Positions 1-64,000 of a stretch of 64,000 nucleotides of DNA are shown here, one piece after another. The first letter of the stretch is position 1. The number at the start of each line of letters is the position of its first letter. The stretch is from Syncephalis plumigaleata (taxonomy: Eukaryota; Zoopagomycota; Zoopagomycetes; Zoopagales; Piptocephalidaceae). The stretch lies in the NCBI GenBank assembly GCA_025201365.1, contig JAIXMF010000013.1, forward strand, positions 62,001 through 126,000, read 5' to 3'. The notes under the pieces are model-generated. The model had not been told where the DNA came from, made no database searches, and saw only the letters and a program-made list of their open reading frames with translations. The position numbers and the translations under genes were made by a program.

Positions 1-3000
1 ACCGTAACAACGCGCAATTCAACAATTATGACAAAAACCGTAATAGTAACAGTAATAGACATCATAATCCTTTCCGTAGAAACAACGCCATTACGACCGA
101 CGATCCGAACCTACAAATTGACGATCACTTTGATCAAATCAACAATGCTCAGAATACGGGAAACGAATCCCACCAGTAAACAACAGCGGTGTTACTGGTG
201 AAGCGCTCGATACCGCTGATACACCATTTCTCTTACCTACTTGTTTAACCGAAGAACTTGGTGAATTATGGATAGCACGCAAGAGTAGACCCTTGATATC
301 AGTTCAATTGCCCTTTAATGGAATAATGGCGAACGTATTAATTGATTGCGGTGCTACCGACAATTTCATCGATACCTCGTTTGTTAAGCGGATCAATCAC
401 CCGCTTATTCCCTATGAGAACAAACAATCAGTTACCCTAGGAAATGGCTCTGTTGGCAGTGTCTTGTATTGTGCGCATAAAATACCTTTATTAATACAAA
501 ATTATTTACTATATCTTGATTTTGATGTTATGCAATTGGGGAAATATGACGCAATATTAGGCATGCCTTGGTTCGAACAGTACAATCCTAAGATTGATTG
601 GTTAAGTAGAATCGTTACATTTTACATCGATAACGAACTAGTTACTATTTACCAAAGTAGCGATACTATGACCAAGCCCAAATTCATGACATTGAATGAG
701 TTAAGCTCCTGTTTCGACGAACCTGACACTATTAGTTATTTAGCCATTGTACGTGAATCCGATTTGAACACTGGTGAATACAATGGCGATAAGCGTTACC
801 ATAGCTTAGTAACAGAGTTCACTGACGTAACACCCGATAACTTACCCCCTGGGCTACCTCCACGTCGTAACGTGGATTTCGCCATCGAATTGGAACCACA
901 TATAACACCTCCTGCACGCACACCCTATAGAATGGCAAGAGATGAACAAGAAGAAATGAAACGTCAAATAGATGAACTATTGGAGAAAGGATTTATACAA
1001 CCGAGTACCTCTCCATTCGGCGCACCAGTTCTATTCGTTAGAAAGAAGGATGGACCGCTACGTATGTGCGTTGACTATCGTATGTTGAACAAGATCACTA
1101 TCAAAAACAAGTATCCATTACCACATATTGAATCATTATTCGATCAACTAGAAGGTGCAGCGGTATTTAGTAAGATCGATTTACGGTCTGGTTACCATCA
1201 AATTCGAATCAAAGAGGAGGACGTACATAAGACGGCTTTCACTACTCGTTATGGCCTATATGAATTCAAAGTGTTGCCATTCGGATTATCGAACGCGCCC
1301 GGTACATTCATGCGACTAATGAATGACGTTTTCAGACCGCTTCTCGACCAATGCGTAGTAGTATTTTTAGACGACATACTGGTGTTCAGCAAGAGTCACG
1401 AAGAACATGCCGCTCATTTACGACAAGTATTCGAATTGCTACGACAACATCAATTGTACGCAAAGCTCAGTAAATGTGAATTCGGTCGCGATAAAGTCGA
1501 CTTCTTAGGCCATACTATCAGTAAAGAAGGCATTCAAGCGTCAGAAGATAAAGTCATTAGCATACGAGATTGGCCAGAATTAAAAGACGTTACGAGTGTT
1601 AGGTCATTCCTAGGACTTACCGGGTATTATCGTAAATTTATTAAAGGTTATGCTTTCATTGCAAAGCCTTTAACGAATCTATTACGCAAGGATGTTCCAT
1701 TCAAATTCGAAAAAGAAGAAAGAGATGCTTTCAATCAACTAAAAGAAAGAATGACTAATGCACCGGTATTGCGTTCTAGTAATCCTAGTTTACCATACAC
1801 CGTTACAACGGACGCGTCAAATGACGCAATCGGCGCTGTATTAATGCAAGACGACGGTAACGGTGATAGGCCAGTAGCTTTTATGTCAAAAGTATTGAGC
1901 AATTCACACAAAAAGTACATTACTTACGATAAGGAATTTTTGGCCATTAAAGAAGCCTTACGTATCTGGCGACCGTACTTAATAGGACAAAAATTCACTG
2001 TGTACACTGATCACCGGCCATTGACACATTTGCAAAATCAAAATGACTTATCAGATAGACAGACAGATTGGCTAAACGACATGTCAAAATTTAACATGGA
2101 CATTGTATATAAGCCTGGAAAAATGAATGTTGTAGCCGATGCCCTCTCAAGAAAACCCGCGGCAATCACGTCTGAATCGAATGCCATTACTCGACTCTCG
2201 TCAAATAACGAACTACTAGATCATGTTCGAAACGGATACAACAATGATCCTTACTTCTTGGAAGTGAAGTCTGTTCTTAAGGGGGGTGGAAGCACGTCAA
2301 AAAGCGGTTATTCAAAACGATTTCGACTAACAAACGACGGCTTAATCTACGAAATGCGTAGAGAAATACCACGCCTATGCATTCCTCAAGGAGAACTACG
2401 TGCGAAAATACTACGTGAAAAGCACGACATACCGATATCAGGTCACTTAGGCGTTGATAAGACCCTAGCCAGAGTAGCGCAACAATACTGGTGGCCTGAA
2501 CTGAAAAAGACAATAGAACGATACATATCATCTTGCGACAAATGTCAACGTAACAAGCCGTCTCAAAGGAAGCCAGCTGGATTATTACAACCGTTACCAG
2601 TACCCAACGAGAGATGGGAAGACATCACTATGGATTTTATTGTTCAACTTCCACGTACTAAAAACGGAAAAGACGCAATATTAGTAGTAGTAGATAGACT
2701 CACAAAGTACGCACATTTTATACCTACTACTACTACTGTAACTGCAGCGGAAACAGCTCAACTGTTTATGGACAACATATTCCGTTTACACGGCCTACCA
2801 AAAAGCATTATTACAGACAGAGATGCTCGTTTCGTCGGAAATTTCTGGCGTTCCTTCTTCAGCATATTAGATGTCCAACTTAAACCGTCAACCGCTTATC
2901 ACCCACAAACGGACGGTCAAACTGAACGAACGAATAGAACGCTAGAACAAATGCTACGAAATTATGTCAATTATAAGCAAGACAATTGGGATCAATTATT

Positions 3001-3890
3001 ATCTGCAGTCGAATTCGCGTACAACAGCGCCGAACAAGCTTCTATAAAAATGTCTCCATTTTATTGCTATTTAGGAAAACAACCTCGCGCCGTCGACACA
3101 CTAGGCACGAAAGTAGACAAAATTACACATGTAGCCAGCACAATCGACATGGTCAACAAGATCAACGAGATAGTACAACTAGCTAAGAACGCCATTAGTA
3201 ACGCACAAGATCGACAGAAACACTATGCCGATCAACACAGAAGAGAAGACGATTTTCAACTAGGTGATCAAGTCTTATTATCAAGTGCTCATATTATTCT
3301 AGACATCGACAAAGAAAGACCTTCGCGAAAATTCACCTCTCGTTTCATCGGTCCTTTTCAGATCACTCAGATAGTGAGTAAAACCGCTTACAAATTACAA
3401 CTACCAACAACAATGAAAATACATAATGTCTTTCATGTCTCACTACTTAAACGCTATGAGCCAAATACTGCGGAATTTCCACATCGAGAGAACGATAGAC
3501 CACCTCCCGACATAATCAACAATACAGAAGAATACGAAGTAGAGCGTATATTAGATGTACGTACAAAACGAGGAAAAGTACAATACCTTGTTAAATGGCT
3601 CGGTTACCCAGACGAAGAAAATACCTGGGAACCTGCAATTGGATTAACTAATGCAAAAGCAAAAGTAGCTGAATTCAAACGAACACTTACTACGTAGGTT
3701 CGTTCTTAAGGAAGGATGATTGTAACAATTGTTACGATAGTGAAAACCTTCGGTAAGACTTACCGAAGCGGTAGTTAGACTTACCATATTTCACACAGTA
3801 ATCGAATTAATTTTATCCCTATAAATACTTTATTACTTTTATTTAAAATAAAGATCATCTATCTTCTCGTCTAAAGTTGTGCGTATTACA
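1..3890 (+). mobile_element. Ty3/gypsy LTR retrotransposon with chromodomain (chromovirus), 3' part
   Basis: Only the 3' part lies in the window; the 5' LTR and most of gag are outside it. The first ~180 nt read as an Asn/Arg-rich gag tail. The polyprotein that follows (long open frame to 3697) has the family order: aspartic protease with an Asp-Cys-Gly-Ala site, reverse transcriptase with FLDDIL, RNase H, integrase with an HHCC zinc region and DDE core, and a C-terminal chromodomain around [18 protein letters not shown] purine-rich stretch precedes the LTR. The visible coding part looks whole, which suggests a fairly young copy, but the LTRs cannot be compared, so no age is given. It lies antisense to VAC14 and inside it. 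Confidence 0.93.
3721..3890 (+). repeat. 3' LTR of the Ty3/gypsy element
   Basis: The repeat begins TGTAACAATT just after the polypurine stretch. It can be closed at 3890, where the sequence ends in TATTACA, giving TGTAA/TTACA inverted ends and a short 170-bp LTR. It contains TATAAATA and AATAAA-like signals near 3820-3852. On the complementary strand, VAC14 coding sequence resumes in frame exactly from 3891, which independently supports this edge. The next five bases, GTCTC (3891-3895), would be the target duplication, but the other side is outside the window. An alternative end near 4056 is less likely because it would put VAC14-like coding sequence inside the LTR. Confidence 0.65.
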
Positions 3891-5741
3891 GTCTCTGATG
3901 ATGATACTGTCATACTCGCTTCAGTTGTATCCTGAAATCCATCCGTTGTTTCCGCTTCACTACCCGTAGTTAGATTCGTGCCATCATCAGAGGCAGCAGT
4001 CGACATATTCCCAATACCCGTACGACTATTGATAGAGTCGTGTTTTGTTTCTAACAATAATAGTTTGTATTAATACTTTGATATTGCAAATAAGGGAAAT
4101 AACATATTGTCCTACATACGTGGTGGTATCTCAATATGTTGTATCAATTTGAATAGATTACGATTGGCACGCGTTGCTATCTCCCTTATAGAGGAATACA
4201 ATCATTAATAACATCTTATTGCTGCTATTGCTGCTACATACCTGATATCAGATCTTTGATGAGAAAGACTAGGAAGGATGGCTCGTAATAACTCGGGTGT
4301 AAATGGCACGACAACACTCTGAGCAATGTGCATGAATTCATTGAGCCATCGAATGGCCGTCAACTGAATCTCTTCATCTAATACGCGATAGATTATATGA
4401 TTAATACAACATTGGGAATAGTAACACTAACATAGTTCAAATAACACTTACCTGTAGATATCAAATGTGGCTGAAGTATCTTGATAATCTGCGTGTAATC
4501 AATCTCGATACCTTGACCCGGTGTCCATACACCCGCCATCGGATTGTTATTGTCACGTTCATTCAACGTGGAATGATTGACATCATCTGTGGTGCCATTC
4601 GACTCGACACCGCCGATCTCGGTTGTTTTCGCTTGCTGTTCATTACGTAGTATAGCGATATCACGTATCTCCTGCAGGAAATCAGCGAGTAATAATGCGG
4701 TGGCATTCCGTATCTCCTGATTTCGATCACTCAGGAATTTAATCAGCTCGTTCAGGAATGCAGGCAAGTAGTATACAAGTTCGAGATCGGGAACGGAATT
4801 CAACACGGTAAGCCATTGAACGAGGAACATGCGTACGTGCTCGTTCGTGATATGCATACGTTCAGCGAGTACGGGAATGAACTTGGTTAGCGTGAACGGT
4901 CTCAAGAAACTCGACGCAGTTATCGGCGAATGAGGAGCGCCCTGACCCACGGTTATCGGATAATCATCCAGCTCATTGGTGGCCGGCATATGCACCGATG
5001 TATGCTCTGCTACAATATTCTTAATAAGCATGTTCAAATGATTCGCTCCCTTGGCCACCTGTTTGTCGGGATCAGCCACCAACTAACAGTATATACATAT
5101 ATATATTATATCGTTAGTATATCGAATAAATAAAGCTAGACACGATGCACGTCAATGCTAATCACCTTGCTTAACCCGTCAAATATCTCGGTAAAGAAGC
5201 GTAGAATACCCGCTTTAGCCGCATTGGCTATATTGTACATGGCTTCACAGGCACCATACCGCACCGTACTATCCTCAGCCGTGAATAATGGTGTAATAGA
5301 TGGTATGAGTACACTGAGATAATTGTTGACTTCCTAGATAGATATATAGATATATATCGTTGAATGACTATTAATGCATGCATATATGTATATACTCAGC
5401 CTGTTCTAACTATCACTCCACTTACCGTGCCCAATCCAATAGCTACCGCTGCCAGTCCAATAGCTCCACCGTTACGTACGTTGGGAAGTAGACTGAGCGT
5501 GTAGTCATCTGTAAGACAGCGAATTACGAACATGATTCGTTCATAGTCTTTAACTTCCACCAACTGCCGTATTAGCCTATTATGCAAAATGTAAATACAA
5601 TGACGTCTATTATCTCTGGCATATATATGTATATATGTATACGAACTTCTCCACTTCAAGAGCAGCAGCCTTTCGCCGCTCATACACTTTATCTTGTAGG
5701 CCACGCAGGGTGTTCGGGGTCAAGGGCGAGATTTCAGACAT
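3839..5741 (-). CDS. VAC14: Vac14-like HEAT-repeat scaffold, truncated by the retroelement
   Basis: Vac14 scaffolds the Fab1/PIKfyve-Fig4 complex that makes PI(3,5)P2 on the vacuole or endosome. The start is the ATG at 5741 ([14 protein letters not shown]-like N-terminus). About seven exons follow, with conserved blocks such as [31 protein letters not shown] and [15 protein letters not shown]. The exon at 4051-3891 reads in frame as a Ser/Thr/Glu-rich linker, as expected after the HEAT region. From 3890 the frame runs about 17 residues into the antisense LTR and stops, giving roughly 490 codons. The C-terminal Fig4-binding domain is not in the window; it is either lost or lies on the far side of the element. 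The family call is firm; the fate of the protein is inferred. Confidence 0.88.
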
Positions 5742-13550: not shown

Positions 13551-14359
13551 GGATCAACAAAGTAAAGGCAAACTATTGATTTGAAGACAGTAAAATGGTT
13601 TAAATCAATAGAAAAGAAAAAGAAAATAACCAAGATCTGGTTAGTTTCATTATCACCTGGAATGTGATCATCAAATCAGAATAATAATCATTATTTATCT
13701 ATCATTACTAATACGTTTACGAATGATTTGTATCGACTAGCATGTCTATGTTTAATTGATCATTACATCAATGACGATGAATGACACTCACTCGATGCAT
13801 GTCTAATTCAATGACAATAATAGCTCATACGATGTACATTCATGTGGGGAGAGGAATGATACACGATACATTCTATGCAAAGGAGGTAATGCAATCATAC
13901 GACAATTGACCTAGGTAGCTCATGTCGCTGTTGTTTCATATCATATATTTGGAATGCATTACTGGTTGACATAAACAGGTTATCGTGTATTCCTCCATCT
14001 AATTGGTACTAACTTACTCCGTGTACCATCTATTGCTTGTAGATTGGTAGTTCGACTATACTGATATCTGCCATTGCCACGTGTATACCGGTTAGAATAG
14101 ACTTGTACCATCAGTCAGAGAGCGAACATACTGTCCGATACTCACATGTATGGCATGGTACGAATACAGGTTGATTGATGCTCATTAGGAATATCTGTCA
14201 TCATCATCTCGGCTATAAATCGAGCACTTTTTGACACACTCAACTTGCCATCTTCATACTCGCTCTTCTACTCTATTCTCGTTCTATTCTACTCTTACTA
14301 CTCTCTATTCTCGTTCTAGTTAGCTGCGCTATCTATTCATTCCATAGGCCAACATCAAC
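13551..14359. promoter_or_regulatory. Intergenic region upstream of peptide locus A
   Basis: About 800 bp, AT-rich, with no gene seen. A TATAAAT box at 14214-14220 lies about 140 bp before the locus A ATG. It is followed by a repetitive pyrimidine-rich leader (CTCTATTCTCGTTCTATTCT-like, about 14265-14320), fitting a highly expressed secreted-peptide promoter. Confidence 0.5.
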
Positions 14360-16415
14360 ATGAAGTTCTCTGCCATTATCGCTATTGCCGTCACCCGTTG
14401 TCGCTCTCACCAGTCTGGTCGCCGTTGAAGCTAGTCCCGCCTGGATCGTCGTGGTATGTCTGTCCGTGACCCTATCAATTGATGTACTAATGTAGTCTAT
14501 TGTTTCATTGTCACCGATGATTACCGATAGGTGGTAAGTTCATGTATATTAAAGTTGTTTCATATGTTAATCACATTTATGTTTATTCTTTTATTCATAT
14601 GGTAGCTGAATGGGGTATGCTATCTATTGACTATAGCAAGTACTATGCTAATTGTAGTGTAAATCAATATCATGTGTAATTACTTTTTCAAGATGTAAGC
14701 TACCATTCTAATTACAGTGCATGAATGTACTAATCACGATTTGTCACATGATTCGCTTATCATAGTGTGTAAATTACCATTTTGATTGCAATAAATAGCG
14801 TACTAATTTTAACGTGGCACCTGATTTCCTGTATGATAGGACGTAAGTTATCATTCTAACTGCATTGTATGAGATATTAACCACACTATGGCGTATGATT
14901 TGCATATGTTCGTGTATGATAGGACGTAAGTTGCTACCTGATCGTAATGAACGTGATACTAACTCCATGATCCATAATCAATACGTGTTTTCGTATAACA
15001 GCAAGTAAGTAATCGTTTTGACCGTAATGAATAACGTATTAATTGTAACATAACACACGATCCATATGTTTCTGTATGATAGATTGTAAGTTATCATTCA
15101 ATTCTGTGTACGGTGTACTAATCACGCTATGGCACGTAATCCATACGTATGTCCCGGTATAATAGTGTGTAAGTTATCATTCCATTTATAAACTATGGTA
15201 TACTAATTATGATGTGATACGTGATCCATACGTATATCTGCCTATCTCAGTGTGTAGGTACCATTATGGTCGTAATGAATGGATGTACTAACTATGATAC
15301 GGCACACGATCCACATACATTCCTGTATGATAGAAAGTAGGTCATTATTCTGACCATAATATAAATACGCTAATAACAATGTGGCTTATTATCCATGTCT
15401 GCTTGCGTATGATAGGTCGTAAGTTATCATTCTGGTTGTAATCTATGGTGTACTAACTATACTATGGCACACGACTTTTTGTATGTTTCTGTATACAATA
15501 GATTGTAAGTCATTATTCTGACCGTAATGAATGAAGTATTAATTATACTATGGCAACTAATCCACATATGCATGTATGATAGAATGTAAGTTAGCATTTT
15601 GCCTGTGATGAGTGATTTACTACTAACAGCGTTACACATAATCTATATGCGCCATTGCATTATAGGGCGTAAGTTATCATTCTGGCCGTAATGAACGAGG
15701 TACTAATCACGCTATGGCACACCAATCTATATGTTCCCGTATGATAGGAGGTAAGTTATTATTGCGATTATAATGTATGATTACTAATTATGATATGACA
15801 TATGATCCGCACGTACCTGTATGATAGACCGTAAGTTGTCATTCTGGCGGTAATTTATGGCATACTAACTATGATACGGTGCACGATTCATTTACGGTTC
15901 TGTATGATAGACCGTAAGTTACCATTATGGCTGTAACCCATGTGGCACTGATTGTAAATGTGACACATGATCCATATACGTTTGTTTACGATAGGGAGTA
16001 AGTTACCATTCCAATCGTAATATATGGCGTACTAACTACATTATTGCCACATAATCCACCTATGTTTCTGTATGATAGTATGTAAGTTATCATTTTGGCT
16101 ATAATGAACGAATGTACTAATGATAATATGGCATATGATTTCCATACATTTGTGGATAACAGTGCGTAAGTTACTATTCCCGATGATAACGTATGACTGT
16201 ATTGATATTAATACGACACATGGTCTACCTATGCCCTCGTACGATAGAGAGTAAGTGAATATCGCTGACCGTAACGTATGAATGAGTACTAATTACAGTA
16301 TGGGCATGATTCACGTATGTTTGCGTATGATAGGACGTAAGTCATCATTTCGATCGTCATTTATGAGAGACTAATCACAATACAATGTACATCATCTGAA
16401 TAACAGCGTCATTAA
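14360..16415 (+). CDS. Secreted Cys-rich peptide gene made of single-codon exons, locus A (signal exon disrupted as assembled)
   Basis: Exon 1 (14360-14453, 94 nt) matches the signal/propeptide exon of locus B and ends at the Arg-Arg site plus one base of the next codon. Then follow GTG 14531-14533, a 9-nt exon 14606-14614, a 2-nt exon 14693-14694, and twenty 3-nt exons starting at: TGT 14766, GAC 14840, GAC 14923, CAA 15002, ATT 15083, TGT 15166, TGT 15251, AAA 15334, GTC 15416, ATT 15502, AAT 15583, GGC 15666, GAG 15748, ACC 15828, ACC 15911, GGA 15995, TAT 16079, TGC 16163, AGA 16248, GAC 16334. Last coding exon 16407-16418 is CGT CAT TAA GCA. Every exon is bounded by AG and GTAAGT-like sites. 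The mature peptide would have 27 residues with cysteines at 6, 11, 12 and 23 (C-CC-C). As assembled, exon 1 does not stay open in one frame, although its length is kept: pseudogene or assembly error. Function unknown. Confidence 0.75.
14454..16406 (+). repeat. Train of copied introns with 3-nt exons between them (locus A)
   Basis: Twenty tandem units of 74-86 bp (about 83 on average) run from 14766 to 16406. Each unit has the same layout: 3-nt exon, GTAAGT(T) donor, a stretch like TATCATTCTGGCCGTAATGA, a branch site TACTAAT/TACTAAC, a stretch like ATGGCACATGATCCATATG, and an acceptor TGTATGATAG. The intronic parts are clearly copies of one another; the three bases between AG and GT vary. The exon was exactly 3 nt in every one of the twenty units I measured. 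A few donors vary (GTAAAT, GTAGGT). Confidence 0.9.
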
Positions 16416-16470
16416 GCAGTAAGCAACAATCCACAATAATCATACTCATACTAATCCATTACGATTACAG

Positions 16471-16621
16471 AACAAGCAAGGACACCATCAAGTAGATATT
16501 ATAGGTATTCAAGTCAAGAATGTATTGGTGCAAGACCTCATTTAGTGTCCATGCCATTCAAGCCTTATTCCTTAGGCCAAGAAATATATCTACAAGATCA
16601 TTCAATCATTTATTGAATAAA
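16471..16621 (+). other. 3' UTR exon of peptide locus A
   Basis: After the last intron (16419-16470, branch CTAAT, acceptor ACGATTACAG) comes a segment nearly identical to the end of locus B (from 44920). AATAAA lies at 16616-16621. The TAA in the preceding 12-nt exon makes this non-coding. Confidence 0.7.
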
Positions 16622-16693
16622 TATGTCGTATTGATCATTACAATTACAGCTAGTCTAATAAGGAACCTAATTATACCTTTATTATTATTGCTA

Positions 16694-41420: not shown

Positions 41421-44400
41421 ATGAAGTTCTCTGCCGTTATTGCTATTGCCGTCGCCGTTGTCGCTCTCGCCAGTATGGTCGCCGTTGAAGCTAGTCCCGT
41501 CTTGGATCGTCGTGGTATGTCTGGCTGTGACCCAATCAATTGATGTACTAATTGTAGTCTATTGTTTCATTGTCCACCGATGATTACCGATAGCTCGTAA
41601 GTTTACGTGTATTAAATGGTTGTTTTGATATGCTAATCACGTTGCAATGGTTATTCTACCTATCAATTGATTAGCTAAATTCAGTAAGCTAGTTTATTGA
41701 CCATAACAAGCACCATGCTGATCATAGTATAATATTTACTCCACCTGCTAAATGGTCAGGTAAACCTGGTAAGTTATTCCATTGACTATAACAAATATCG
41801 TACTAATTGTAATACAAATTGATCATACGCAATATCATTTACAAGCTTTTGTAAGTTCAAGCAATAATTGTAACGCATTGTATACTGATCACCATATGAC
41901 GTGTAATCCGCGCATGTTCATCTATACCAGTGGGTAAGTTGTCATTCTGATTTTAGCATACGCCGTACTAATTATCATATGGCACATGATTCACGTATAC
42001 CTGAATACGATAGGGAGTAAGTCATCATTCTAGTTACGATGTATACGAGGTATTAATTACAACTATGGTGTATGATTCACGTATATTTGTGTCCGTATTA
42101 GGTGGTAAGTCGCCGTTATAATGGTAACGCATAGTCTATCAATTGTAATCTGAAATATATTCCTCACATTCGCTTGTTTACAGAATAGTGTAAGCTTTTT
42201 TATTTTTTTTTTATTTTTGCCAATCAGCTTAAGCTGAACCACCATTGTCCTCCGTTGGGACGTTTGGGAAGCTGTATACTGAAAAAAACCCAGCATACTG
42301 GGAAAAAAGTACGTTGTAAAATTCTAGGGTAATAAAAGTAATAATAAGAAATAACTGAAAGGAAGGAGCGTGTCATTAGTTTAGTATACTTGTGTCCGAA
42401 TCTGAGGCGTCTTCGCCCACAGTCCTCGCTCTCCTCGACTCTGGTATAGTAGTAGACTGGTTGAACGACATATCCTTCCTTTTCGTGTTTAAGTACGTTG
42501 AGATTCGGGCTTGTGATTTCTGCTTCGGTTCCGATTCCAATTCGTGTTGTGACGGCGTACTTTGAGTTGCCTCATTTCCTGTATCGTCTGGAGTATGTAC
42601 TAGGTTGCCAATACTAGTCGAACCCACTTCCTGTGGAGCGCTTGCTGTTGGAGGGGCTGTATTCTCTATTCCGTCCATAGTGGCCGGCTGCTTCTTCTTT
42701 TGTCTGCGACGTCGCTTGCCTTCCTTCACTTCATTATCTGCTGCTTCTGGAGCATCGGTTGATTCGGCCGCTGGCTTTGTGATCGAGATGACTTCATCTC
42801 TGAGCTCGGATTGCCAAACTGCGGCGTACTTCTCTTGGATGGATTCGGGCATTCGCTTAAGAATTGTCTGTAAGCCCGCTCGGAGCTTCTCCTTACTTTC
42901 TTTGATAGCTTCCTCGTTTAGGCCAGGGCGCTCGGCTTCTTTCGTCCAATCGTAGTTGGGCTGGTATCTCATTCCAGAGTCGTTAATGATGCTTAGGAAT
43001 TCTTCCACGTAATTCTCTGTTACCAGAAACTGAGTTGCATTGCGCGTAAACATAATGTTTGCTACGAATGTCGTCTTGACTCCTATCAAGCGTAAGTGAC
43101 TGCGGATCTTGCCAATTGCTTGGCGCTCTAGATTCGTTACGTAAATCGCTTTTAACGCATGCGGCGTATCGGGAATAATCGTTTTCTTGATAATATCGCT
43201 AATAATATTGCGTTTCGTTTGTTTATTCGGCGCTATGCCATTACTGGCAGCTAGAGCGTACGTTTTGACGGTGTTCGTGTTGTTGTTGACTGCAGCCTGA
43301 GCTTCAGCTCCGTTGGTCGTATTTACGGTAGCTTGGTTTCGCATCTTACTTAAATCTGCGATTAGTGTGCCCGCCTTTGCCATCAGCTCGGGCATCTCCA
43401 TCGATTTCGCTTGATCTCCGATCAGCGGCGTAAACAGGTTTCGTAGGTGTTCGTGAATCTGCTTTATTTCGCGTTCGATCGTAGTGAATCTACTATTAGT
43501 CTCTTCGTTAACTTGATTTGAATGTATACTCAAATTCGTATTACCACTTTGTGGTTGTGTAGCGTTTACACTACGGGGGCTGTTATGGCTCATGTTAGGT
43601 GAGCTTGGTGCTATTCCGACCATATCCATGGGAGACGACGACTCATTTTCGGTATCGTTATATTCTACTGAGATATTGTGGATTATTGAGCTATTGGGAA
43701 TAGCCGATTGATCCCAGAATTCGCCATCGTTATTGCTGTAAATGAGAGCTGATTGGTCCTGTGGTGTAGGTCGTGTGTTGACGGTGATTGGCTGTATACC
43801 AGTTGTACTACCCATTGCGTGCGTCTCTGAGTCACTCCATTCCTCTGGTCTCGTTTGGTGTCTCCTCGTTGGGGTTGCCAACGGTCGGTGTACGCTAGTC
43901 AGTAGCGACTCTGTAGATTCGGCTGGGCCGCCATTGCCCAGGGCATCGTATACTCGCTGTTTTGTTCGTGGTGAGATCATCTGGAGTCCAGCGTTCAGTA
44001 TGTCGTCGTCAGAATACTGATTATCACCAACATGTCCACAAAGCTGATCGACGATTTGGGTCGAGGTGTATGCGCATGGTGCGCAGGGGAACTGCTGTGG
44101 TCCTCCTCTTCTGACGTTGGGATTGCATTTCCAGTTCCATATCCTTTCTTTGTCGCTTTTAGCCCGTTGAGGCACCAAGTCGCTGAAAAAATTACTACAC
44201 CTCGTTCGATGTAAGCGACCGACCAGGTGTATGAGGCCCGCCGCTCTGGCGTTCTTTATGCTCGGGCGTGCTTCCGGGTCTGGAGGCATATTTATTGTCA
44301 ATAAATTGCTGGTGTACGCTTCAAATTATGTAGGTAGCACAGAGGGGAAAAAGGGATAGTAGAATAGTGTAAGCTGTCATTCTAATGACATCGAATGATG

Positions 44401-61213: not shown

Positions 61214-64000
61214 ATGAGCGAATCAGCCGTCAACATGGAAGCTAGTGACCAGCAACTACCTCCTCCGCTAACCGACCCTTCTCCGACTACACCTACCGGT
61301 GGTGGTGGTGGTGGTGCAGTATCACCGTCTGCTGCCAACACTGGTAGTATTAGTGCAGGTATGTCATTTTGCATATAAACTAATTAAAAGATGTCTTACT
61401 AATCAGCTGTCAATATTGTATTTGCCGAACAATAGCTTCATCACCAAGTGGTAATGGAATGACCGCACAAGAACCTGCCACGTTTAATCCTGCAGGTATA
61501 CCCCCGGAAATAGTACCTATAGCGCAGCGTTTCTTCACCTTTACCAATAAGGTTTACATGCGTGGTCTTCTTAACAAAAAGAACGATATCATGCCGGATG
61601 GAAAACCGTTTAGCGTACGTGACTGGACCTCGTGGTATGTTGAACTACGCGGGCCTGTTCTGACATTCTGGACCACTACCGATTTAGTCGGAGATGCAGC
61701 TCGTCTACAACTACTTCATGATCCGCAAGTATTGAGCGCTCACAAATCGCAAACCATACCAAACTACATCAACATTACGGATTCGGTGGCCGAGGTCATT
61801 GGCATGTTCGAGGATCGTCAATTCGTGCTTAGTCTTAACACGGCCGGTGCCAATCGATTCTATCTGGAGGCCACCGGGCCACAGGTCATGCTAGCCTGGG
61901 TACGCTGCATTCGTTTAGCGTGCTACGAGGTCACTCATTTGTGCGAGATCTACACGCAAGCCTTGATGAGTCGACCCGCATTCAGCAAGGGTGCCTCAAC
62001 GCGATCCGGTAAACGTACAGAAGGCTGGCTACAAGCACGAGCCACCGGCAGTACGGAATGGAAAAAGTACTGGACGGTCATTGATGTGGCGGGCCCAGTA
62101 CCGCGAGTGGTATTCATGGACTCGAAACGATCCAAGAAGCCTATCTTCGTGATGACCAACATTTCACAGGCATACGCCATTTATCCGGAGAAACCGCAAC
62201 TGGTCGACCTATCAACAATTCATAAACTGGAGGGTTTAGTATTACACGGCGAGGATTCATCACCGGTGCCTGCATTCGTTCAATTAATGGCACCAGCACC
62301 CGCGGAAATGGCACGCTGGCTATGTGCCGTCCATGATGCCTTCTACCTGTATGGCTGCCCGGGTATGCCACAAATCATACCGCTACCTGACGAGCATAAT
62401 CTCTATTTGGATCCCGCCGAAGTGGCCGATGTACCGGTGGACGGGCATAGTCTAGCCGCCACCAAACAGATATTTGATCGAATTGCTAATGAAAAACAAC
62501 AGCAACGTCATCGATCGCCTGCTACTAGTAATTCGGGTAGTTCGGCTGCATCTCCATTCGCACCACGTCCTCCCACCATGAGTCGTAGCAATAATAGTAG
62601 CTCGCAACATCCTAATATGCAACACTCTGGTATATTCGCGCCATCTAGCCATCGACAAGGACATGTTCATCAGCCAAGTCTACACAATCCCAGCGGTAGT
62701 GGACCGATGCCACCGCCACCTCCTCCTCCAGTGAATCCCATGAATCCCAACTATTATTCTCCTCCCCCTCTTGGTAATAATGGTCCACCATTACCACATC
62801 CACCTCCACATCCGATACAACACCAAATGAATGTACCATCACCACCCGGTTCACGTAATAGCTCACTCAGTGATCGCGCTCCTCATAATCGACCGCCATT
62901 GTCGCATAATCCGAGTAACATGAGTGTGTCATCGAACCATCAGTATGTGCCACCGCCACAGCAGAATGTTATCAATCCAATGGTGCACAATCATGTTGGT
63001 ACTACCAATCCAGGTCACACGGCCAACTCTTCTATCTCGTCCAATAACAACAGTCAAGATCGTCAGCTGCCCATTACTAATACATCGTCGATATCGCCTC
63101 CAATGGCATTGTCCTCATTGCCCGAGATTCCATCTATTAGTGGTGATTTAATGGGAGATGGACTGCATGGACTATCACTGACCGAGAAAGATACGAAATC
63201 AGAGAAGAAAGAAGAGAAACCACAACGACGACGTAAACCGGCTCGTCCATTAGCCAGTGATTCTGAAGAGGAAGAGGATGATGACGACGACGACGACGAG
63301 GATAACGAAGAAGATGACGAGGATGAAGATGAGCCAGCTGAGAAGAAGAAAGAAGTGGCAGCACCTGTCAAGCCATCTCCACCTGTATCGCAAACTAGTC
63401 CACCCATTATTCATCCTAGCAGCGATCTATTGCCACCCATTGGTGGTCTAATATCATCCGATATCAACTTGTCATTCCTTAATGTCGACCCTCATGCAGC
63501 GGAATCGGCGGTAACCAGTACGAAAGCAGACACATCAAGCACTACAGCGAAACCTGCTACCGAGGAGAGTGCTGCAGAGGCACCATTAAGTGCAGCAGCT
63601 AAACGACGTAATCGACGATTAGCCAAGGCACAGGCACCACTTCCATCGGATAGTGAAGAGGATGATGACGATGATGACGATGACGATGATGGCGAGAATA
63701 AGCCAAATCTACCAATGACGACCACGACGATTAATACGACAGGCAACAATCCGATACTAGGCACATCCAACGCCAATGCCTCTACACAATCATTAGGTAT
63801 GAATGAAGCAATGGATTCGATAGCACGTCCACGTACGGGTAGTGTTCCAATGCTTAGCGAGGGACGTCGACCATCAATGCCATTCGACTGGCAATCCAAT
63901 AACTCTGGTAATTTACTAAAACATACTATCATCATATACAATTACTAACAACGTTGTTAATAGAAACCACACTTCCATCCATGCAATCAGGTCGTCCTCA
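61214..64000 (+). CDS. CAF120/SKG3-type PH-domain protein (runs off the window)
   Basis: Start at 61214 (MSESAVNMEASDQQ); a Gly run precedes the first intron, and exon 2 begins near 61436 with ASSPSGNG. Two PH-like units follow: KVYMRGLLNKKNDIMPDGKP, WTSWYVELRGPVLTFW, QFVLSLNTAGANRFYLEATG, and EGWLQARATGSTEWKKYWTV, VVFMDSKRSKKPIFVMTNIS, QAYAIYPEKPQLVDLS. The rest is disordered: Pro/His/Asn-rich, then acidic runs (coded near 63266-63330 and 63655-63690). An intron starts near 63910 (branch TACTAAC, acceptor GTTAATAG near 63962) and coding continues past the end. Yeast Caf120 and Skg3 act with CCR4-NOT and at the bud neck; function here inferred. Confidence 0.85.

Follow-up and report, generated by a model that had tools for sequence, protein, structure and literature searches.

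Trains of predicted one-codon exons in a secreted-peptide gene family of Syncephalis plumigaleata

Can a spliceosomal gene deliver its product one amino acid per exon? The question is raised by a locus of Syncephalis plumigaleata, a zoopagomycete fungus (Zoopagomycota, Zoopagales) from a genus whose species are mycoparasites. The locus lies in the window analysed here, a stretch of 64,000 nucleotides that corresponds to positions 62001–126000 of contig C35 in genome G000 (32.6 Mb, 383 contigs). Coordinates are those of the window, and the gene is on the + strand. The original prediction, made from the letters of the window, noticed twenty consecutive segments of 3 nt and read each of them as an exon holding one complete codon of a secreted C-CC-C peptide gene. 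Judged from sequence, the array very probably encodes the mature peptide of a spliceosomal gene and gives almost every amino acid a 3-nt exon of its own. The evidence comes from the frame, the choice of codons, the pattern of codon change between copies and the structure of intronless copies.

The window gene and its family

The predicted gene starts with a 94-nt exon (14360–14453) for a signal peptide and a dibasic RR site. Two small exons in phase 1 follow, GTG (14531–14533, 3 nt) and CTGAATGGG (14606–14614, 9 nt), and then the 2-nt exon AT (14693–14694), which sets phase 0. The twenty one-codon exons of the train are TGT (14766–14768), GAC (14840–14842), GAC (14923–14925), CAA (15002–15004), ATT (15083–15085), TGT (15166–15168), TGT (15251–15253), AAA (15334–15336), GTC (15416–15418), ATT (15502–15504), AAT (15583–15585), GGC (15666–15668), GAG (15748–15750), ACC (15828–15830), ACC (15911–15913), GGA (15995–15997), TAT (16079–16081), TGC (16163–16165), AGA (16248–16250), and GAC (16334–16336). 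The three TGT and the TGC encode the cysteines. The exons are flanked and separated by 21 introns of 70–83 nt (14695–16406, a span that includes the train exons). These tandem-repeat-like units have GTA-type donors and YAG acceptors, and most of the introns have a TACTAAY-like branch site. The terminal coding exon CGT CAT TAA GCA (CGTCATTAAGCA, 12 nt, 16407–16418) carries the stop codon.

Most of this anatomy had been described in the original prediction and is confirmed. The twenty segments from 14766 to 16336 lie where they had been placed, each with YAG before it and a GTA-type donor after it. The upstream exons of 94, 3, 9, and 2 nt bring the frame to phase 0 at the start of the train, and the 12-nt terminal exon, the branch sites, and the mature peptide of 27 residues with a C-CC-C pattern are present as well.

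A genome-wide check for AG-NNN-GTAAGT had been proposed, and it turned out positive. Across the genome there are 340 occurrences of the strict pattern TATGATAG-NNN-GTAAGTTA and none of its backward control, which is far from chance. The signal exon has 144 genomic copies with at most two mismatches, and a protein search listed 150 places. The train region matches 119 genomic stretches among the best candidates, which were grouped by hand into 40 regions. Train arrays are mostly 65–73% identical between loci. Among these places, reading was confined to 44 array loci (L001, L002, and L009–L050, sister copies included) and, later, to L051–L057.

Two splice models were applied. The first was trained on donor and acceptor sequences, left exon length free between 1 and 120 nt, and was run on 40 loci. 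In its output, 895 exons measure 3 nt and two measure 2 nt, and no further length occurs below 32 nt; pieces of 32–93 nt appear where an intron was missed. The introns are 51–115 nt long with a mode of 80 nt. The best path of this model ended before the 6-nt exons of L014/L015, and these are counted only with the second, more sensitive model. For the latter, sister copies were removed, leaving 32 non-redundant genes, and exons predicted past the stop in flanking sequence were cut off before counting. The 32 trains contain 880 exons of 3 nt, 25 of 6 nt, four of 2 nt, and one of 27 nt, and the median of 942 train introns is 80 nt. The maximum is a train of 63 exons in L014/L015, made up of 45 with 3 nt and 18 with 6 nt. 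GTAAGT is the donor of 799 of the 942 introns, TAYTAAY is seen in 735, and 933 have TAG or CAG acceptors; these counts are partly circular, because the models were chosen by those signals.

The products share a plan. The translation of exon 1 is a hydrophobic leader of the MKFSAxIAIAVAVVALTSLVAVEASP..RR type, a putative signal peptide, in nearly all models. The C-CC-C pattern is found in 23 of the 32 translated trains by hand count; it is absent from L017, L040, L043, L044, L046, and L047–L050.

Several features of single loci can be added. The tail of L014/L015, from about position 4822 of these loci, mixes the 18 six-nt exons with one-codon exons and encodes a Pro/Arg-rich C-terminus. The train of L048 (C1:1741000–1745500) reads PALKAKAKAKL; a unit of two codons recurs in it every 163 bp, apparently through recent duplication in tandem. 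Some paralogues, such as L011 when set against L020 and L039, have flanks that are 88–95% identical over about 1 to 1.7 kb, while the trains do not align at that level, in a comparison that listed matches of at least 88%. Second copies at 96–99% identity lie on short contigs (C35/C15, C362/C186, C112/C323, C2/C263, and others), as is expected for alleles or haplotigs.

Reading frame and codon choice

Exon 1 is 94 nt long in most models (97 nt in L047, 92 nt in L046, 93 nt in L049) and leaves phase 1. It is followed by phase-1 exons of 3, 6, 9, or 12 nt, and then by an exon that brings phase 0, mostly of 2 or 5 nt in the relatives and of 11 nt in L011/L013. The train is closed by a terminal exon of codons, TAA, and GC[AG] or AC[AG]. 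The splice model had no knowledge of the reading frame, and frames close in 24 of the 32 genes. Twenty close directly (L044 at the exon before the last), L015 closes by its exon lengths, and L020, L026, and L027 close on the assumption that, where the acceptor is ambiguous, splicing takes the first AG. This acceptor, that of the phase exon, is ambiguous in six loci. When three choices were compared, the upstream AG closed L020, L026, L027, L031, and L045, while none of the three closed L024 at its terminal stop.

No stop is present among the 880 codons of 3-nt exons, which are not independent since units are duplicated; 34.6 are expected from the positional base frequencies of these exons themselves and 45.6 from pooled frequencies. 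The strict genome-wide matches contain 41 T-initial triplets. All of them were listed and none is a stop, which gives 0/340.

It might be supposed that the whole train is normally removed as one large intron, that the 5' exons are joined to the terminal exon, and that the codons are rarely or never used. The outer splice sites do resemble the inner ones. However, the absence of stops and the conserved frame require codons in use, public gene models include train codons, and the fused intronless copies that were read carry sequence between both junctions. Removal as one intron is thus a most improbable account of the locus.

The choice of codons points in the same direction as the frame. A codon ending in CA or TA creates YAG together with the G of the following donor. 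Such codons number 10/880 in the trains and 376/2311 in ordinary coding sequence (p = 5e-43), for which six open frames of the window (2,311 codons, two frames not tested against Pfam) served as the reference. CAG is seen in 0/880 train codons versus 41/2311 ordinary ones, and GTA or GTG in 1/880 versus 74/2311. Codons ending in AA or GA, which make the weaker RAG with the donor G, are frequent (151/880). CAG, AAG, and GAG are in descending order of 3' splice site strength. AAG accounts for 10/67 Lys codons in trains versus 37/90 in ordinary frames (p = 4e-4), and GAG is not avoided (29/51 versus 71/142). The constraint does not explain the near-absence of TTC (1/25 Phe) and TAC (0/27 Tyr) from the trains.

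Certain acceptors are linked to certain codons. ACCAG or ATCAG is mostly followed by CCT (20/28), CACAG precedes Cys codons (24/24), and GCTAG often precedes TGG (19/46).

Codon change, intronless copies and rival explanations

The 3-nt segments do not change as the introns do. In six close sister pairs (L001/2, L009/10, L011/13, L022/28, L032/35, and L041/42), the exons show 2/714 differences versus 287/17,395 in the introns. In two diverged pairs the relation is the reverse: 16/77 in exons versus 144/2046 in introns for L037/38, and 18/96 versus 287/2536 for L026/31. The same is seen unit by unit. Near-allelic units whose two introns each reach at least 90% identity show 3/251 changed codons, with about 8 expected from intron triplets. 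In units of other pairs that pass the same filter, 47/166 codons are changed and about 18 are expected; 17 of the 47 are changed at two or three positions, with about 2 expected. These expectations were summed by hand over bins, and the units of overlapping pairs are not independent. Outside near-allelic pairs, change is more frequent in codons than in intron triplets and comes in larger steps.

Two comparisons illustrate the mode of change. Between L021 and L029, the codon differences ATT/AAA and CTG/CGT sit between introns that are 96–100% identical. Twelve units distinguish L017 from L027; in the unit alignment, 11 of these lie side by side, and the train still consists of whole codons.

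Copies without introns carry the predicted exons in joined form. L051 has no introns, and its exon 1 runs directly into CTGTTGTC-AACGCCGTGCTCCTCA. This sequence aligns over 24 of 25 columns, with one gap, to the exons CTG, TTG, TCGAAC, GCC, GTG, CTC, and the start of CTCAAGACA of the L047 model. In L052, read by eye, the first six of these stand apart as individual exons. The stop region of L051 continues without a break into the 3' untranslated exon. This fused 3' junction occurs at 37 places with at most two mismatches, while the 60 places with three mismatches are nearly all ordinary genomic acceptors. Exon 1 fused to a following CT is found at 24 places, and at 17 of these the fused 3' junction follows as well, 24 to 138 nt further on, when the two lists are matched by eye. 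Some of the 17 doubly fused copies may be alleles of one another. Five fused copies were cut out as L053–L057. L054 is open from ATG to TAA (MKFSAILAIAVAVVAVASLVAVEAKPALDRRAPNTQFPGMPAGMPMPPGLIPMPGMPGQ), L056 is without an ATG at the usual place, and L053 shows no stop in the 191 nt that were read; as cut out, L055 and L057 begin within exon 1 owing to the chosen coordinates. When the predicted spliced form of L047 was used to search the DNA, nothing matched, not even the known L051, so this empty result says little.

The intronless copies carry the predicted junctions whether they are derived from complementary DNA or ancestral, and the fused junctions fit intron gain and intron loss alike. 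Under intron gain, introner-like elements would have invaded intronless peptide genes after every codon, and the intronless copies would be the ancestral state. The likeness of the train introns to one another and the existence of intronless members agree with such an invasion. However, the matches to train sequence lie in arrays, among the best candidates listed, and, in the closely related L017 and L027, 11 of the 12 units that distinguish them are contiguous. An origin by intron gain is therefore unlikely.

The same copies bear on the end of the gene. In the window, an intron of the 3' untranslated region is placed by eye at 16419–16470, and intronless copies are joined at the same place; the splice model set its acceptor elsewhere than at 16470. 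The 3' untranslated exon (AACAAGCAAGGACACCATCAA...) extends over 16471–16625 and ends near the motif TGAATAAATATG. Its end is approximate, and similar sequence is present in other loci. The second model used GTAGAT as a donor in the 3' untranslated region. GTAGAT is probably not a donor there, because it is retained in L051 and other intronless copies.

Public annotation contains partial versions of the same products. A profile search restricted to the 8000 best candidates listed 27 proteins, 19 of them from Syncephalis plumigaleata. BDF22DRAFT_685769 contains NPINGSMDYVYWKPIVPGYWGPINGLCYTPSMEKECAPEK, which equals the L010 model minus five codons. Each omitted codon can be assigned to a codon with a non-GTAAGT donor, and the model retains two more codons of this kind. 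BDF22DRAFT_685685 comes from the locus that is the sister of L040 and matches the L040 model minus several codons. The proteins P0033 and P0035–P0040 have a related signal peptide, some of them reading into apparent intron 1, and are perhaps relatives from other lineages, so the family is probably wider than this assembly. When viral contigs were searched with a metagenome relative, none was found.

The omitted codons bring up the possibility of combinatorial output, in which subsets of the codons are skipped and each gene yields a pool of peptides that vary in length and sequence. Exons of one codon in phase 0 can be skipped without frameshift, the train introns have interchangeable signals, and several of the codons omitted in the NCBI models have non-GTAAGT donors. 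On the other hand, signals are nearly uniformly strong, with GTAAGT in 799/942 introns, and together with the recurring Cys pattern this favours one product. It is rather doubtful that pools of this kind are the regular output.

Several observations weigh against the reading of the segments as codons of an expressed gene. The first concerns exon 1 of the window copy. The sister L002 on contig C15 is 99.2% identical over 4.7 kb, is open to its TAA, and encodes MKFSAVIAIAVTLVALTSLVAVEASPVLDRRGAEWD-CDDQICCKVINGETTGYCRDRH. Relative to it, exon 1 in the window has one base extra and one missing. Its length is still 94 nt, in agreement with the original prediction, but the signal peptide runs into an in-frame TGA that was overlooked. 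With its signal exon disrupted, the window copy as assembled may represent a pseudogene allele, or the assembly may be in error. The second concerns the frames. Six of the 32 genes do not close (L012, L024, L030, L033, L046, and L049), and two were not judged (L034, which starts at a contig end, and L050). TAA makes up 2/50 codons of the 6-nt exons (L044 and L046), both in the exon before the last. The third concerns codon usage. The synonymous usage of the trains is unlike that of the ordinary window frames (relative synonymous codon usage, r = −0.18, 59 codons), and codon-usage similarity failed as a test of coding. The dissimilarity seems to be owing to splicing constraint, an explanation that was found post hoc; relative to the total of codons, the frequency of AAG is not reduced (10/880 versus 37/2311, p = 0.41).

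Further points of this kind come from the comparisons between copies. A seventh close pair, L014/15, shows no clear exon constraint (6/257 in exons, 139/5273 in introns). In two diverged pairs the exons do not change faster than the introns (L018/23, 3/125 versus 263/3115; L025/30, 10/183 versus 262/3914). The 47 changed codons comprise 28 non-synonymous and 19 synonymous changes, which does not establish selection for new residues. Neither the intronless copies that were read nor the searches yielded a C-CC-C train in intronless form. Finally, the codons missing from NCBI models can mostly be assigned to non-GTAAGT donors, which suggests either that the annotation comes from a splice-score gene finder rather than from transcripts, or that skipping is real.

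Some of these points would suit a train that is a non-coding tandem repeat with chance splice-like motifs, where the product ends soon after the signal peptide or the locus is dead. The broken first exon of the window copy, the unusual codon usage, and the existence of arrays of related repeats, mostly 65–73% identical between loci, agree with it. However, such a repeat does not account for 0/880 stops, 24/32 closing frames, a recurring Cys pattern, 3-nt segments that change unlike introns, the avoidance of YAG, and the existence of intronless copies. A non-coding repeat is hence very improbable. A simple repeat or satellite is rejected in view of the stops, the frame, and the substitution pattern. 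Tandem Repeats Finder did not report the window train.

The reading of each segment as a complete codon exon was the central claim of the original prediction. It is borne out by the absence of stops, the closing frames, and the avoidance of competing 3' splice sites, and is further backed by codon change unlike that of the adjoining introns and by intronless copies that join the predicted exons. One-codon exons in a gene for a secreted C-CC-C peptide are thus supported at the level of sequence.

Other features of the window are as follows. A TATA box, TATAAAT, is recognised from the sequence at 14214–14220 (+), about 145 nt upstream of the ATG. TATAAA is present at a comparable distance in most loci read, and was not found in L016, L018, L034, and L048. 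A second family member lies at 41421–42195 (+), with a 94-nt exon 1, CTC, small exons, and few one-codon exons (TGG, GGA, and GTG by eye); a T-rich stretch and an apparent insertion then truncate the gene. Beside this broken member, at 42376–44325 (−), there is an open frame of 649 amino acids without a Pfam match, possibly a retroelement protein. A Ty3/gypsy-type retroelement polyprotein with a chromodomain is encoded at 134–3697 (+). The end of the window encodes a PH-domain protein 99% identical to BDF22DRAFT_745026 of Syncephalis plumigaleata.

Proposed mechanism and comparison with known systems

The predicted structure suggests how such a gene could work. Exon 1 would encode a signal peptide with the dibasic RR at its end. 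After some small exons in phase 1, phase 0 would be set by an exon of 2 mod 3 nt, mostly of 2 or 5 nt. The train introns, each about 80 nt long and equipped with very strong signals at donor, branch site, and acceptor, would deliver the codons singly, and the terminal exon would supply TAA. Removal would proceed by intron definition, apparently the only mode that could work here, intron after intron, because a 3-nt exon is hardly recognisable as an exon. A 3' and a 5' splice site separated by 3 nt could scarcely be occupied at the same time, so sequential splicing would be expected. The leader, the dibasic site, the cysteines, the family size, and the codon change point to a secreted and diversifying function. 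The products are most likely secreted interaction or effector-like peptides acting against the host fungus or competitors.

In evolution, one intron plus one codon is probably a unit, gained or lost without a break of the frame, while codons are changed or exchanged and Cys codons mostly kept. The conserved splice sites perhaps serve as short homology arms for the exchange of codons. It can be proposed, with somewhat less than even confidence, that exon and codon coincide in this family, that this module of about 80 bp is the unit of protein evolution, that whole codons are inserted, deleted, and exchanged between introns otherwise nearly identical, that frame-neutral skipping may yield peptide pools, and that the family is a codon-level diversification system for the secreted peptides of a mycoparasite.

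Single exons of 1–3 nt are known but are regarded as curiosities; here trains of up to 63 exons, almost all of them holding one or two codons, are predicted in dozens of genes. They would offer a natural test of pure intron definition and of splicing order and fidelity, and would show how the spliceosome handles 3' and 5' splice sites 3 nt apart. If true, they would also represent a new mode of protein evolution, because a peptide would grow or shrink by exactly one residue whenever an 83-bp repeat is inserted or lost. Since exons of this kind readily escape gene finders and RNA aligners, others may have gone unnoticed.

Some families of secreted proteins resemble the trains in part. Conotoxins have a conserved signal, a dibasic site, and a variable mature peptide with a fixed Cys pattern, and their genes have few ordinary exons. 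One of 12 predicted Syncephalis peptides matched the Pfam family Conotoxin (E = 0.007). Aphid bicycle proteins have paired cysteines.

The original prediction knew of no gene built from a train of one-codon exons, and no description of such a train was found in the open-access literature, among the matches listed. Very small exons are on record one at a time. Exons of 1 nt occur in plant APC11 and VPS55, and a 3-nt exon occurs in Drosophila homothorax; intronless copies of APC11 are ascribed to intron loss mediated by reverse transcription (PMC8831610, PMC4674806, PMC7392893). These cases indicate that exons of 1–3 nt can be spliced; yet, in the parts of these papers at hand, the exons are isolated, in ordinary genes, and form no train. 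Xlr2 of Trichoderma, as far as the portion at hand describes it, has a functional microexon in a filamentous fungus, a single exon in a transcription factor (PMC11121469).

The micro-exon genes (MEGs) of Schistosoma are closer. In the sections at hand, they are families of secreted parasite proteins with a conserved signal peptide and short exons that are mostly multiples of three. The exons are given as 3–81 bp in the abstract and 6–81 bp in the text, most of them 15 bp, with introns of 0.1–5 kb (PMC10526429). The Syncephalis genes share an N-terminal signal-type leader with MEGs and lack the pattern of exons of about 15 bp and introns of 0.1–5 kb. Unlike MEGs, they belong to a fungus, their trains are long with exons of 3 or 6 nt (five exceptions) and introns of about 80 nt, and their unit is an intron plus one codon. 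The bicycle genes of aphids, in the part of the source at hand, are likewise a divergent family of putative effectors with many unusually small exons of the same phase (PMC9168663). They average about 17 exons and their internal exons are almost all in phase 2 (PMC9168663), whereas the Syncephalis train is in phase 0 and its upstream small exons are in phase 1. Within what these sources describe, MEGs and bicycle genes are the closest systems, working alike but differing from the Syncephalis trains in exon size and phase.

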